From Candidatus Kryptonium thompsonii (GTDB lineage: Bacteria > Bacteroidota > Ignavibacteria > Kryptoniales > Kryptoniaceae): 64,000 nucleotides of DNA. The notes beneath the pieces are model-generated. The model was given only the letters and a program-made list of their open reading frames with translations, was not told where the DNA came from and searched no databases. The position numbers and the translations under genes are program-made. This document shows positions 34,371-40,703 of the stretch, one piece after another. The DNA lies in NCBI GenBank assembly GCA_001442925.1, contig LDXX01000006.1, positions 310,001-374,000 of the forward strand. Direction: 5' to 3'. Position 1 is the first letter of the stretch; every line of letters starts with the position of its first letter.

Positions 34371-34399
34371 TTGACTTTTTCATTTCTTTATATTATATT
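34371..34399 (+). promoter_or_regulatory. Sigma-70-like promoter of the apbE operon
   Basis: TTGACT at 34371-34376 (-35) and TATATT at 34394-34399 (-10) are separated by exactly 17 bases. This is the most consensus-like promoter noticed in the window, upstream of the apbE ATG at 34430. Its -10 is partly inside the palindrome at 34396-34416, so binding there would block RNA polymerase. Confidence 0.68.
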
Positions 34400-34416
34400 T
34401 AGACTGAGTCTAAATA
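34396..34416. promoter_or_regulatory. 21-base perfect palindromic operator overlapping the -10
   Basis: TATTTAGACT-G-AGTCTAAATA is a perfect 10-1-10 inverted repeat, 13 bases before the apbE ATG and overlapping the -10 box. The half-site TTTAGA resembles boxes of iron- or manganese-responsive Fur-superfamily or DtxR-like repressors (for example the rhizobial Irr box TTTAGAAnnnTTCTAAA). The regulator is not encoded nearby. Metal control of this operon is inference. Confidence 0.7.
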
Positions 34417-34429
34417 AATTAAATGGACT

Positions 34430-35353
34430 ATGGATAAGCTTGTTAAATTTATGCTGTTGTTCTTTGTCGTGGAGATCGTCCTAGCTCAGGGAGCGAGCTA
34501 CTATCTTATGGGGACATATGCTTACATTGAGCTTCCAAATGAAAACCTGAATTACACTGCGTATAAATATCTCAGGGGGATTGAGATGAAGCTTTCGGAT
34601 TATGTCGATTCGTCGGATGTCTCAAAGATTAATCTAAATGCGGGGAAGAAATTTGTAAAAGTTTCGGATATCACAATTGAGGCTATAAAAAACGCCATTG
34701 AGATTTCAGAAAGTACAAATGGGGTTTTCGATATCACTGTTGGAGCCTTAACAATTAATGCTAAAAGGTTCAAGAAATTATCCGAAGACAGTGCTCGTAA
34801 GCTTATTAATTTCAGAGATGTAGTGATTTCTGGTGATAGCGTGATGCTTTTAAAAGAGGGGATGGCAATTGATTTGGGGGGGATGGGGAAGGGATTTGCA
34901 ATTGAAAAAGTCTTTGATTATTTAAGGACGAGCTCTGGATTTATTTCAATTGGCGGAGATATGAAGGTGTGGGGGCATAAGAGGACGCTTGCGATCAAAG
35001 ACCCTATAAATGGAGGTACACTTGTTCAAATGGTCAACTCGAGCGATGTCAGCATATCAACATCTGGAAATTATTTGAGAAAACATATTGAAACAAAAGA
35101 TGGGAGAATTGTTCAGGTAACAGTTGCCCATAAAAATGCAACACTTGCAGATGCCTATGCGACCGCTCTCTTTGCGATGTCTAAGGATTTGAGAGATAAA
35201 TTTTTAAGTGAGAATAACGATGTTGGTGTTCTAATACTTTACGACGATGGCTCAATTTTTGTAAACAATAAATTTAGAGAATTTTTTGATGTAATGATTT
35301 TTAAGGATGGCGTTCAGCATATTTCAAAAACAAATAAAGATGATGAAAAATGA
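34430..35353 (+). CDS. apbE: FAD:protein FMN transferase (ApbE family), exported
   Basis: ApbE attaches FMN from FAD to a Thr/Ser in the [S/T]GA[T/S] motif of periplasmic proteins. The 307-residue protein starts with a signal segment (MLLFFVVEIVLAQ), so it acts outside the cytoplasm. AIDLGGMGKGFAIEKV is the Mg/FAD site motif. SSDVSISTSGNYLR and ADAYATALFAM are the other conserved segments. The target candidate is three genes downstream at 36780. Its gene overlaps the porin gene by 4 bases. The usual H-x-I-D-P-R-T-G sequence is degenerate here (RKHIETKDGRIVQ), a notable difference. Confidence 0.88.
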   Translation: MDKLVKFMLLFFVVEIVLAQGASYYLMGTYAYIELPNENLNYTAYKYLRGIEMKLSDYVDSSDVSKINLNAGKKFVKVSDITIEAIKNAIEISESTNGVFDITVGALTINAKRFKKLSEDSARKLINFRDVVISGDSVMLLKEGMAIDLGGMGKGFAIEKVFDYLRTSSGFISIGGDMKVWGHKRTLAIKDPINGGTLVQMVNSSDVSISTSGNYLRKHIETKDGRIVQVTVAHKNATLADAYATALFAMSKDLRDKFLSENNDVGVLILYDDGSIFVNNKFREFFDVMIFKDGVQHISKTNKDDEK

Positions 35354-36717
35354 ACAAGATCATTTTTAAGGCCTTCATTCTAACGATCGCTTTATTTATA
35401 TTGTTATCAAACCTTACATTCTCCCAGTCGCAGGAAGAAAAAATAAAACAACTTGAAAAGAGGATTGAACAGCTTGAAGCTGAAATTTCAAAGCTCCAAG
35501 CTATTGGAAAGCAAGAGGAAGAGATAATCCAGATGATCGAGGCGTTGAAAGAAGAAGTAAGACGACTTCGGCTTGAGGTGGCGATGCCGGAGATCGAACT
35601 GAAGTCATACTTTGGACTTGGTCCAGCAGCTTCAAAAATTTACTATACTCCACGCGGGTTATCAATTGCCGGATATGGTGAGATAACATATGAAAATTAT
35701 CTTGATCAGTCAAAAACGGACAGAGGGGATGTGTTAAGATTTATACCTTATATCGGGTATAAATTTACGGATAACATCCTGGTAAATTCTGAACTTGAAA
35801 TTGAGCATGCTGGGATCAGTAATGTTGGGGATAGAAAGCCGGAAGTTTATGTTGAATTTTTATATGTGGATTTTCTTTTATCATCGGGATTTAACATAAG
35901 AACTGGGTTATTTCTCATTCCTATAAGTAGAATGAACGAATATCATGAACCACCCGTCTATTTTGGGACATTAAGACCTGATGTGGAAAGATTTGTAATT
36001 CCAACTGTGTGGAGGGAACTTGGTGTGATGGTTTATGGTGAGTTATTCTCTGGGCTTTCGTATAAAGCAGGGATTATGAATGGCTTGAGAACCGATTTGA
36101 TAGGCGATTGGATTGGTGCTGGAAGACAGAGAGGAGCAACAGTTAATTTTGACAAGTTTGCGGGGATTTTAAGATTCGATTTCACCCCCATTAAAAATTT
36201 AACACTTGGAGCTTCGTTCTATAGCAGTGGTGGAAGTGACGCAGCCGGAGCAAGTCCAAAAGGAAGCGCGGAGGCAAAATTCGGGCTTTTAACATTTGAT
36301 GGACAACTTCAGTTTGAAAATTTACTTGTTAAGGGTTTATTCGCTTATGGAAGTGCGGATGGTAATAGCTTTTATACGAATAGAGCCGGTAGAGCAAGTA
36401 AAGTTTACGGATGGTATGTAGAAGCAGGGTATAATTTAATCCCGCTTATATATCCAGAATCGATAGTTTCGTTTTCTCCGTTTGTAAGGTATGAGAGATA
36501 TGATTTGAATAGAAATGTTTTCGTTGGGGATCCGGATCCGAAGAAAAATAGAAGTGTGTTTACATTTGGGATTGACTTTAAACCGCATCCACAGGTAGTG
36601 ATAAAGGCAGATTATCAACTTCGCAATACTTCATCGAGCCTTCCAGCTGGTGTTGGAAGTGGGAAGGATGAATGGAAAATTGATCAATTTAATATAGGAC
36701 TCGGTTTTATATTTTAA
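35350..36717 (+). CDS. Porin-like outer-membrane protein with N-terminal coiled coil
   Basis: The 455-residue protein has a signal peptide (ILLSNLTFSQ) and a coiled coil at residues 25-75 (EKIKQLEKRIEQLEAEI...). The remainder is a beta-barrel region of alternating aromatic and polar strands ending in F, the usual outer-membrane assembly signal (IDQFNIGLGFIF). It resembles phosphate-selective porin O/P-like proteins. The coiled coil may trimerise or span the periplasm. In this operon it may be the outer-membrane route for a substrate or reductant of the flavin system. Confidence 0.75.
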   Translation: MNKIIFKAFILTIALFILLSNLTFSQSQEEKIKQLEKRIEQLEAEISKLQAIGKQEEEIIQMIEALKEEVRRLRLEVAMPEIELKSYFGLGPAASKIYYTPRGLSIAGYGEITYENYLDQSKTDRGDVLRFIPYIGYKFTDNILVNSELEIEHAGISNVGDRKPEVYVEFLYVDFLLSSGFNIRTGLFLIPISRMNEYHEPPVYFGTLRPDVERFVIPTVWRELGVMVYGELFSGLSYKAGIMNGLRTDLIGDWIGAGRQRGATVNFDKFAGILRFDFTPIKNLTLGASFYSSGGSDAAGASPKGSAEAKFGLLTFDGQLQFENLLVKGLFAYGSADGNSFYTNRAGRASKVYGWYVEAGYNLIPLIYPESIVSFSPFVRYERYDLNRNVFVGDPDPKKNRSVFTFGIDFKPHPQVVIKADYQLRNTSSSLPAGVGSGKDEWKIDQFNIGLGFIF

Positions 36718-36730
36718 CGCCATTGAGGTT

Positions 36731-36757
36731 CTCCCGGGCTTTTGCCCGGGGATTTTT
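36731..36757 (+). terminator. Intrinsic terminator-like hairpin between porin and FMN-binding genes
   Basis: A 7-bp GC stem (CCCGGGC / GCCCGGG) with loop TTTT is followed by ATTTTT. It lies between the porin stop and the ATG at 36780, so part of the transcripts should end here and the two downstream genes should be expressed less. Confidence 0.85.
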
Positions 36758-36779
36758 ATAAAAAATTTGCTTAGGTAAG

Positions 36780-37292
36780 ATGATAAATCTTTTATTGCTA
36801 ATTTTGTTTCTCTTGATCCAAGGTAAGAAACCCGAACAAGTTTTAAGTGAGATTTATCCTAATGCGAAAATTGAGATCAAAAACATCGTGATATCAGATT
36901 CGCAGGCTGAAAAAGTTAAGGAGTTATCCGGGGTTAAAGTTGAAACAAAACTTATCACATTTTATATCGTTAAGGTTAATTCGAAAGTTAAAGCATATGC
37001 TTATGTTGATATTCATGTTGTCAGGACTCATCCTGAGGTTGTGTTATATGTTTTAAATGAGCGAGGCGAGATTGAGTTGATTCAGATTTTGTCGTTTAAG
37101 GAGCCACCGGAGTATAAGGCAGATGAAAATTGGCTGAATTATCTTAAAGGTAAAACGCTTGGTAAGGATTTGTTAAAGTTAAGGAAAGATGTACCTAATA
37201 TGACAGGGGCAACTTTAACTGCAAGGGCGATAACAGATAATGCGAGAAAAGTCATCGCATTGTGGAAAATAATTTTTGAGGAGGGGAAATGA
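36780..37292 (+). CDS. Exported FMN-binding protein with ApbE flavinylation motif
   Basis: A 170-residue protein with an N-terminal hydrophobic signal or anchor (residues 2-13). It is likely an FMN_bind domain. VPNMTGATLTARAITDNARK near the C-terminus holds the motif T142-G-A-T145, in which ApbE attaches FMN to the last Thr, as in NqrC and RnfG. The rest is alpha/beta and short, with no membrane helix beyond the first. It overlaps the next gene by 4 bases (ATGA) and depends on the apbE gene of the same locus, so it should be a covalent FMN electron carrier outside the cytoplasm. Confidence 0.8.
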   Translation: MINLLLLILFLLIQGKKPEQVLSEIYPNAKIEIKNIVISDSQAEKVKELSGVKVETKLITFYIVKVNSKVKAYAYVDIHVVRTHPEVVLYVLNERGEIELIQILSFKEPPEYKADENWLNYLKGKTLGKDLLKLRKDVPNMTGATLTARAITDNARKVIALWKIIFEEGK

Positions 37293-38254
37293 GGTTCTTC
37301 TGGACTGGTGAAACAAAAAATTTTAAGCCGATACATGTTGCAATTTTTCTTTTTACAGTTTTTGTCTTTCTATTTTGGATTGGTGCTTTTGTTCATTTTG
37401 GAATGAAGTTTGGTTATTCGGTCGAGAAAATTCAATATTATTTTTGGGGTGAGCCCGATTTCCCAAGCGAAGTCTCAATCGCTCAAGTTTTGGAAGAATC
37501 GCATGTAAATCTTTTTGTTGTTGGACTTCTTTTTCTGTGTATCTCTGCTTTGGTTGTTTATTCAGATATCTCCCCGAGATTAAAATTTGGGTTAATGCTT
37601 GCCCTTGCGTTTTCAGGGCTTCTTTACGCTATATCTGATTTGATCATTATTTTTCTCGGAAGGGAATATGCAGTTTTGAAGCTTTTTATATTTTTGCTCT
37701 TTCAAGCTGTGATTTTTTTATCGTTGTTGCTTGTTTGGTTTAAAAGTTCACGGGCTCAGAAAAATAAAAATAGTATAACTTCAAGATTTCTTGCCATTTT
37801 GATTTTTATTTTTGCAATTTTTAACCTTGTTTTCGCTGGCTTGAATTTCACATTATTTGCGAACAAAATTGGTTTTACGATCTCCAATGTTTCAGATTAC
37901 TATCTTGGCAATCCTGAAAAATTTTTAAAACCGAAATCCATTTCTGGGCTCGTTGAAATTGCTTATATTCATTTCCTGCCGATGGCTCTTTATCTGATAA
38001 CGCTTGTACATTTTGTTTATATCGTCAACGATAAATTTAACATTGCGTTAACTATTTTGATGTTTATCTCAGCTTTGCTTGATAATTTTGGGGGCATTTT
38101 GATCACGCAATTTGGAGGGGCATTTGCTGGTGTTAAGTTGTTTTCGTTTTTTACTTTACAATTTCTGCTTTTGCTTTCGTCGGCAATTTTAATCTATAAA
38201 TTGGTCGTGCTTAAATTTAGCTCAAATAGCCTGCGACATCACCAAAGGATTTAA
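37289..38254 (+). CDS. Eight-helix membrane protein built of two tandem repeats, function unknown
   Basis: The 321-residue protein has about eight predicted membrane helices. Residues about 20-150 and 170-310 are related. Both contain a G-Y/F-S/T ... Y-Y-F/L-x-G-E/N-P-E/D-x-F element (42-58 and 195-212), then a helix with histidine (H72 in EESHVNLF, H228 in AYIHFLPM), and a later LL...G/F..KLF.F segment. Further histidines are H36 and H241. I do not recognise the family. The pairing with an FMN protein suggests a membrane electron carrier, possibly heme-binding through these histidines, but no CxxCH motif is present. Confidence 0.75.
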   Translation: MRFFWTGETKNFKPIHVAIFLFTVFVFLFWIGAFVHFGMKFGYSVEKIQYYFWGEPDFPSEVSIAQVLEESHVNLFVVGLLFLCISALVVYSDISPRLKFGLMLALAFSGLLYAISDLIIIFLGREYAVLKLFIFLLFQAVIFLSLLLVWFKSSRAQKNKNSITSRFLAILIFIFAIFNLVFAGLNFTLFANKIGFTISNVSDYYLGNPEKFLKPKSISGLVEIAYIHFLPMALYLITLVHFVYIVNDKFNIALTILMFISALLDNFGGILITQFGGAFAGVKLFSFFTLQFLLLLSSAILIYKLVVLKFSSNSLRHHQRI

Positions 38255-39116: not shown

Positions 39117-40703
39117 TTAGTTTGACTTAATTTCGGTTACTTTATTCCCTTTCTTTTGGTAAACCCTTTTACATTTTTCACATTTTGCTTTTCCTTTTTT
39201 GAAATTTAATTTTTCACCGCATTCACATATCCATCCGTTTATTTTCGCTGGAATGCCTGTCACAATTGCATAATCGGGCACATCTTTTGTAACTACAGCA
39301 CCAGCACCAACCATTGCCCATTTTCCAATTGTTATGCCACATAAAATTGTCGCATTCGCCCCAATTGTTGCACCTTCTTTGACCAATGTCGGGATCCATT
39401 TTCCACCCTTGGGATATTTTGCCCTTGGGTTTAAATCGTTTGTGAAAACTGCAGAAGGTCCAACAAAAACATAATCTTCAAGCGTGACAAGGTCATAAAC
39501 CGAGACATTATTTTGAAGTTTGACGCCGTTTCCAAGCACTGCTCTTGAACCGACAAAACAATTTTGCCCGATGACGCAATTTTTCCCAATCTTTGCACCT
39601 TTCATTATGTGAGAGAAATGCCATATCTTTGTTCCTTCACCAATCTCACATGGTTCATCGATTATTGCTGTTTCATGTGCGTAGAACTTTTCATTCATTT
39701 TTAAAGTTATCCCATTATTTTGTAATGATTTGCTTGCAAGGTCAAGTATTTTTAAAACTCGTAAGGCTTCATATCCATCGGTTAAAGGTTTTTTTCTTTT
39801 ATTGACACATTCAATAAAATGGGCGCATGCGTTTTTCAATGGTTCTTCTTTTTCAATTTCAACTACTTCAGCATCCGCCTTTTTAGCAATGGGCAGATCA
39901 CCAATCCATTCGACTTTGTGTGGATATAGGACAAGTTTATTTTCTGGTTCGGTATCGTTAAAGACAGCCATTTTTTGGGTTCCAATTATAACCAGTTTTT
40001 GTTCTTTATACGGGTGAAGCCAACTCACGAAGATATGAGCTCTTACATCGTTTTTAAATTCGAGATATGTTAAGGTGACATCATACGGGATTTTAAAGTT
40101 TGAGTTTGTGTCAACTGTGTTTGGAAAAAGATAATTTTTCCCAAATGATGAGATTTTATTTGGCATATCGCCGACGATTGAAAGTATAAGTGAAATATCG
40201 TGTGGGGCAAAGCTCCAAAGCGTATTTTCTTCTTTTCTAAATTTGCCAAAGTTTAATCTATTGGAATAAATGTATTTTATCTCGCCAATCTCACCAGAGT
40301 GAATTAAATTTTTCAACTTTATGACAGCGGGGTGATAATGAAGGACATGGTCAACCATTAAGATTAAATTTTTCTCATCCGAAATTTTCACAAGCTCAAT
40401 TGCTTCTTCGAGTTTTAGGGTGAGTGGTTTCTCAACGAACACATCTCTTCCAGAGAGAAGAAACATTTTGGCGAGTTCGAAATGCGTTTCAGATGGTGTT
40501 GCAATTGCAACTGCTTTAATATCAGGGTCGTTTATGACCTCTTCAATTGAGTTGGTGTATTTAGCTGGAAATTTACCTTTTAGTTCATTGTAATTTGTCT
40601 CATTGATATCGCACACCATCTTCAGGACACCTAATTCAAAAAAGTTTCTCACAAGATTTTTGCCCCAGTCTCCAGAGCCGATGACTGCGATAAATTTTTC
40701 CAT
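39117..40703 (-). CDS. Gfo/Idh/MocA sugar dehydrogenase fused to WlbB-like hexapeptide acyltransferase and zinc ribbon
   Basis: Residues 1-335 are a Gfo/Idh/MocA oxidoreductase: GSGDWGKN for NAD(P), EKP at 91-93 and HYHPAV near the active site. Residues 340-490 are a left-handed beta-helix acetyltransferase of the WlbB/WbpD type, with [26 protein letters not shown] and [22 protein letters not shown]. Residues 493-511 are a Cys4 ribbon (C493, C495, C508, C511). WlbA/WbpB and WlbB/WbpD make UDP-2,3-diacetamido sugars for surface glycans; here both steps are on one chain. The transaminase that works between them is not in the window. The exact sugar is not known. Confidence 0.85.

Follow-up and report, generated by a model that had tools for sequence, protein, structure and literature searches.

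The window analyzed here, a stretch of 64,000 nucleotides from Candidatus Kryptonium thompsonii (assembly GCA_001442925.1, contig LDXX01000006.1, positions 310,001 to 374,000 of the forward strand), carries on its plus strand a cluster of four genes in the order apbE, porin, FMN_bind and membrane protein (Table 1). We propose that these genes encode a flavin-based electron-transfer module acting across the envelope, whose substrate is, on balance, most likely chelated Fe(III). By its architecture the cluster is a predicted flavinylation-based extracytosolic electron-transfer system with a membrane partner that lies outside the named classes of such systems. This partner has eight predicted helices and is a tandem duplicate of an unnamed four-helix family, called TM4 here; helix counts were taken from hydropathy and are rough. 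The proposal is built on the gene set and its recurrence, on conserved motifs, on the co-occurrence of TM4 with ApbE, on the replacement of the flavoprotein by heme c in some lineages, and on iron genes that adjoin part of the loci.

Inspection of the open reading frames together with Pfam searches bore out what a first-pass annotation of the window had described: the four-gene set, a TGAT motif with its acceptor at T145, a duplicated eight-helix protein, and two 4-base overlaps, which join apbE to the porin gene (35350-35353) and FMN_bind to the membrane protein gene (37289-37292). ApbE begins with a signal-peptide-like stretch, its relatives in the PDB are FAD (flavin adenine dinucleotide):protein FMN (flavin mononucleotide) transferases (5e-21), and all six species of the genus retain its motifs MGT, GKGFA, HI and DAYATA. 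An ApbE and an exported substrate carrying [S/T]GA[S/T] are two hallmarks of a flavinylation-based extracytosolic electron-transfer system, and both are present in the window. The window genome, 98% complete, has its sole ApbE and its sole FMN_bind protein in this cluster, which is therefore the one place in the organism where ApbE visibly has FMN_bind domains to act on. Among the 131 FMN_bind partners of TM4, all but one have the acceptor sequence GA[TS]. We infer that ApbE attaches FMN to T145. At a number of TM4 loci from Planctomycetota (labeled L184-L189, L192, L193, L197, L201, L204 and L206 in this analysis) the ApbE and FMN_bind profiles match one chain encoded beside TM4, apparently the enzyme fused to its own substrate.

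When 394 other genomes of the phylum were first searched for proteins like the membrane protein, three relatives emerged, each a single four-helix protein encoded close to FMN_bind, ApbE and barrel genes. A profile search located TM4 in 72 of 391 genomes of the window's class, and a scan of named genomes located it in Ignavibacteria (including an assembly of Melioribacter roseus), Calditrichota, Neomarinimicrobiota, Fodinibius, Flavobacteriaceae and one planctomycete. These and the following counts refer to genome samples that include many metagenome assemblies, with mechanical gene calls and with neighboring genes sought within about 6 kb. The same gene set was present in about a hundred other genomes and extends over at least six phyla (Ignavibacteriota, Calditrichota, Neomarinimicrobiota, Balneolota, Bacteroidota and Planctomycetota). 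FMN_bind lies beside TM4 at 69 of the 74 loci from the class and phylum and at 62 of the 66 loci from named genomes, two sets that overlap and comprise 118 distinct TM4 proteins overall. Of the five exceptions in the former set, three lie at contig ends (L054, L074 and L081), one is a borderline TM4 (L109, E=0.006) and one carries a CxxCH insert (L108); of the four in the latter, three have little or no upstream sequence (L115, L137 and L147) and the fourth is a planctomycete TM4 with a CxxCH insert (L176). The 4-base overlap between FMN_bind and TM4 was found in 66 cases. The apbE gene is within the cluster at part of the loci only; genome-wide, ApbE is encoded by 66 of the 72 TM4-positive genomes of the class versus 68 of the 319 TM4-negative ones (Fisher p=9e-30, a value that overstates independence, as the genomes are related). 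The recurring module with an unnamed partner that the first-pass annotation had proposed is thus supported: almost all genomes with TM4 have it next to FMN_bind, with the porin orthologue further upstream, and homologues of the membrane protein stay with FMN_bind genes rather than occurring mostly away from them and from apbE. An EamA-like transporter gene present at 15 loci was set aside as a matter of local synteny, since it lies on the opposite strand every time.

The membrane protein could not be assigned to any described family, in agreement with the initial failure to name it: profile and structure-prediction searches gave no significant family. The eight-helix protein had no sequence match in Pfam, NCBIfam or the PDB, PDB sequence searches with the TM4 profiles returned chance matches only, and neither the window protein, nor 54 relatives, nor consensus sequences matched the NapH-like, MsrQ-like, PepSY-like, DsbD, NQR/RNF-like or DUF4405 classes in Pfam. 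Two candidates, DUF2871 and SirB, were dropped; each was hit by three members at E>0.3 in one scan, and the repeat with consensus sequences gave SirB at E=3.2 only. Single-unit TM4 members with a readable motif region carry HxH where the second helix begins, and these two histidines, at positions i and i+2 of one helix, are the only invariant ones in each protomer. The N-terminus of TM4 is probably inside, placing HxH near the periplasmic face, because the long loop after helix 1 holds a heme-c insert in some members. AlphaFold modeled the single TM4 unit confidently (pLDDT 94.7, pTM 0.87) and the eight-helix protein with moderate confidence (pLDDT 71). One single-unit TM4, encoded at L113:7001-7495, is 164 aa long.

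Two known folds offer partial likenesses. Heme A synthase CtaA (PDB 6a2j) also has two four-helix halves in one chain, and it gave the best query TM-score (0.55) among the PDB matches listed for the single TM4 model, at a non-significant E of 3.8. Subunit I of heme-copper oxidases and NorB share an HxH on a helix with TM4; in the oxidases, helix X carries this HxH near the periplasmic side. The weak top fold matches of the eight-helix model were 8smr_E (E 0.66) and 4xyd_A (E 0.91). Homology of TM4 to the heme-copper oxidases was rejected except as a lead, given an hhalign probability of 0.4%, no match to PF00115 and no significant fold match. Two frames of 129 and 151 aa (L246 and L247, from genomes G781 and G124) combine COX1 similarity with HxH and may be single-unit oxidase-like proteins.

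Nothing argues more strongly for electron exchange between TM4 and whichever carrier stands at its periplasmic side than the apparent replacement of flavin by heme c. TM4 was found in 38 of 149 genomes of a Planctomycetota sample. Where the protein has no heme insert, an FMN_bind domain is encoded next to it or a few genes away at 19 of 20 loci; where CxxCH occurs in the loop before HxH, FMN_bind is nearby at none of 16 (p=2e-9 for the exclusion). The CxxCH-bearing members, which have the site in the loop that joins helix 1 to helix 2 and lack an FMN_bind neighbor, are L108:3383-4132, L176:5632-6891, L194-L209 and L226-L231. Neither the genome of L108, which belongs to the window's class, nor that of L176, counted among the 16 heme-inserted cases, encodes ApbE. 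The genes of about 400 aa upstream of several heme-inserted TM4 genes are mostly oxidoreductases rather than porins, so that the heme variant, in the cases read, comes without the porin. Flavin and heme c appear to be interchangeable at TM4; replacement between flavins and cytochromes is known in other systems, according to a survey of flavinylation (PMC8238504).

The same insert bears on the cofactor of TM4. It is quite possible, though short of an even chance, that TM4 is a hemeless quinol-docking protein, in which HxH takes up protons while quinol is oxidized directly by the adjoining FMN or the inserted heme c; apart from the TM4 cofactor, this reading coincides with the best explanation. 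The presence of just two invariant histidines per protomer, two residues apart on one helix, favors such a protein, as does the location of the heme-c insert beside HxH, as if fed from the same site. However, known flavin-linked membrane partners, DUF4405 and FezC among them, are cytochromes of the b type (PMC10979944).

The two halves of the window's membrane protein align with 24% identity (E=1e-14), and a profile search of the class found the duplication only in the window's genus, in six species. The duplicated partner to which the first-pass annotation had drawn attention is therefore present in this genus, but the general partner is the single four-helix protein. In a phylogenetic tree the halves form sister groups and nest with a second family of the class, whose proteins are single units (98/88 and 100/97 support), which points to one duplication event in the genus, with some caution due to the long branches. 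The halves have divided the HxH motif between them: half A retains only its first histidine (H72) and half B only its second (H228), a pattern invariant in all six species. If a dimer site takes one histidine from each protomer, this pattern would follow from loss of one of two symmetric sites, whereas with a complete site in each protomer both histidines should have been lost together. The split thus fits an active site lying between two protomers, of which one of two symmetric copies has been lost; a precedent for a site shared between protomers is FezC, which has been modeled as a homodimer (PMC10979944, PMC11334425). The only other histidine invariant in the six species is H241 of half B (codon 38009-38011), 13 residues past the second histidine. 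A third histidine at this position of the same helix is common to half B of the window's genus and family f3 (TM4 of L043) only; the 13-residue spacing would place two ligands on one face of the helix across the membrane.

The porin is a constant member of the cluster. Orthologues of one family were found at 130 loci, and the gene is close to or directly upstream of FMN_bind in 115 of 131 cases. Alignment revealed a conserved motif, NEYHEPP / RPxVE..IP..W, and the C-terminal residue is F or Y in 129 of the 130 orthologues. The long coiled coil is a trait of the genus to which the window belongs; it is short in family f3 and absent from the Melioribacter porin that was read.

Iron genes near the cluster suggest a substrate. 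Among the 118 distinct loci, FeoB was found at 14, FTR1 at 4, Fur at 10, and an extracellular solute-binding protein resembling ferric-binding proteins at 2. Iron uptake genes or Fur are linked at 22 of the 118 loci in several families (f3, f5, f12, f13, f14, f20 and the relatives of Fodinibius); the window's own cluster is not among these, and its genome has FeoB on another contig. The order in family f14 is Fur, FTR1 or FeoB, porin, FMN_bind, TM4, ApbE, and FeoB is also near TM4 at three loci of Planctomycetota. An iron transporter lies within 6 kb at 17% of loci, compared with about 1% by chance (a rough estimate). The same survey ties flavinylation to iron reduction in other clusters, and flavinylated systems to VIT1 and FTR1 (PMC8238504). 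Since FeoB, FTR1 and Fur turn up next to the cluster repeatedly and in several families, we favor a reduction of Fe(III) that serves iron uptake; iron as the substrate, an idea absent from the first-pass annotation, is probable rather than settled.

These data have led us to propose a model whose steps, namely flavinylation, the TM4 cofactor, the electron donor, the direction of flow and the substrate, are predictions from sequence. ApbE would place FMN on T145 of the exported FMN_bind protein. TM4, in the inner membrane, would draw electrons from the membrane pool, probably menaquinol, through a site that may include the HxH histidines near the periplasmic side, and pass them to the FMN. The porin would admit an oxidized small substrate, most likely chelated Fe(III), to the periplasm, where the reduced flavin could reduce it, and FeoB or FTR1 would then take up the resulting Fe(II). 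In the window's genus TM4 would act as a fused pseudo-dimer with one histidine from each half. A bolder version, which we consider rather unlikely in its entirety, puts TM4 in a new class of its own among membrane electron-transfer proteins. It would work as a homodimer whose cofactor site lies where two protomers meet, wired either to a partner's covalent flavin or to its own heme c; the flavoprotein would dock on the porin and hand electrons to Fe(III) as it enters, and the fused dimer of the window's genus would have kept one of two sites.

Several observations weigh against the model. No iron transporter is found within about 6 kb at 98 of the 118 loci, the window's included, and the clusters of Flavobacteriaceae have unrelated or cytochrome-c neighbors. 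Three heme-inserted TM4 loci (L228, L229 and L231) nevertheless have ApbE nearby with no visible target. One family, f3 (L043-L050), has VGAT, IGAT or AGAT in place of [ST]GAT in FMN_bind, the first Ser/Thr being lost and the acceptor Thr kept. Neither the single TM4 model nor the eight-helix model has a significant fold match in the PDB, and the cofactor or quinone site of TM4 is predicted only.

The main rival, possible but distinctly less probable than iron, is that the same module serves a respiratory or extracellular acceptor such as an organic compound, an oxyanion or an electron shuttle, the iron genes reflecting shared regulation only. The scarcity of iron transporters at most loci favors it, as do multiheme cytochrome genes, with 19 to 33 CxxCH motifs, that lie downstream of TM4 at a distance of a few genes in an ignavibacterial lineage (IGN16; L092 and L139) and a monoheme Haem_bd protein that precedes the porin in Flavobacteriaceae. 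Yet the clusters have no recurrent terminal reductase, and it is FeoB, FTR1 and Fur that reappear in several families, FeoB also in Planctomycetota. Electron flow in the opposite direction, with the FMN protein oxidizing a periplasmic substrate and feeding the membrane pool, is improbable: sequence leaves the direction unfixed, and reversal is possible in principle in such systems (PMC8238504), but iron-uptake neighbors need a reductant and no periplasmic dehydrogenase recurs in the clusters. It is highly improbable that the genes are mere neighbors and the membrane protein does something unrelated, for although apbE lies elsewhere in many genomes, a hairpin separates the window's porin and FMN_bind genes and joint function is deduced from sequence, the gene order and four-base overlap are kept across several phyla, ApbE co-occurs with TM4 and an inserted heme site replaces FMN_bind.

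Several known systems resemble this cluster in part. The flavinylation-based systems described in the survey (NapH-like, MsrQ-like, PepSY-like, DsbD and NQR/RNF-like; PMC8238504) likewise cluster ApbE and FMN_bind with a membrane partner, and some are tied to iron. TM4, in contrast, has no Pfam match and falls in none of those classes, and an orthologous porin is a constant member here; the membrane partner encoded in the cluster is TM4 throughout, its redox activity being a prediction. The DUF4405 and FezC cytochromes (PMC10979944, PMC11334425) are also small histidine-containing membrane proteins linked to flavinylation or iron, but they have six helices with four central histidines, unlike TM4 with its four helices, HxH on helix 2 and a heme that is only hypothetical. 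The P19/FTR1 iron-uptake clusters similarly have an FMN_bind gene near an FTR1-type iron permease; they are mostly Gram-positive and contain P19 (PMC8238504), whereas the clusters described here have the porin and TM4, and FeoB is the commoner transporter.

Porin-cytochrome conduits of the MtrCAB type combine an outer-membrane barrel, a periplasmic redox protein and an inner-membrane source of electrons. The present cluster resembles them in these three elements but has one predicted flavin per exported protein instead of a multiheme wire, and no multiheme cytochrome is encoded with the barrel in the window's cluster. Because a single predicted flavin takes the place of that wire, a conduit through the barrel is not indicated.

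A literature search on flavinylated systems combined with porins, Ignavibacteria or FeoB returned no description of this cluster in the papers searched; the first-pass annotation likewise could not name the gene combination. The field-defining papers mention no porin in flavinylation clusters, though their supplementary tables may list the cluster without comment. With this module the known flavin-wired systems gain an unnamed membrane component and a dedicated porin, both present in at least six phyla, and a likely role is suggested for ApbE and FMN_bind genes that otherwise look like orphans. Two natural experiments, the exchange of the separate FMN protein for a built-in heme c and the division of the histidine pair within the fused duplicate, make the TM4 site and mechanism directly testable. 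If iron is indeed the substrate, the module would constitute a ferric-reductase route into FeoB and FTR1, for which the papers searched gave no description.

Table 1. Features of the four-gene cluster in the window
Feature	Coordinates	Strand	Size	Basis or remark
Promoter-like TTGACT-17-TATATT, upstream of apbE	34371..34399	+		consensus scan, 10/12 matches
apbE, FAD:protein FMN transferase, signal peptide	34430..35353	+	307 aa	PF02424 1e-42, above cut-off
Outer-membrane porin, N-terminal coiled coil	35350..36717	+	455 aa	weak Pfam barrel matches (OMP_b-brl 6.6e-5)
Terminator-like hairpin, porin/FMN_bind gap	36732..36751	+		8-pair stem and T-rich tail
FMN_bind protein, small, exported, predicted covalent-FMN carrier	36780..37292	+	170 aa	PF04205 8.5e-7, above cut-off
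T145 codon, predicted acceptor (second T of TGAT)	37212..37214	+		sequence motif
Eight-helix membrane protein, fused tandem duplicate of TM4	37289..38254	+	321 aa	TM4 profile matches each half
Half A of TM4 duplicate	37289..37768	+		first His of HxH only: H72, codon 37502-37504
Half B of TM4 duplicate	37769..38254	+		second His of HxH only: H228, codon 37970-37972

The first-pass annotation had opened the cluster at 34371; a promoter-like sequence does lie there, and the apbE reading frame itself begins downstream of it (Table 1). Matches to the promoter consensus are no more frequent in the window than in shuffled sequence. The hairpin in the gap between porin and FMN_bind has a folding energy of -21.3 kcal/mol (z -1.9), and the same gap contains hairpins with differing stem sequences in four of five congeners (L038, L039, L041 and L042). 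It may act as a partial terminator after the porin gene, setting the porin at a higher level than the flavoprotein. Beyond the cluster, a minus-strand frame at 39117-40703 (528 aa) encodes, by the look of its sequence on reading by eye, a Gfo/Idh-type dehydrogenase fused to a hexapeptide-repeat acyltransferase.

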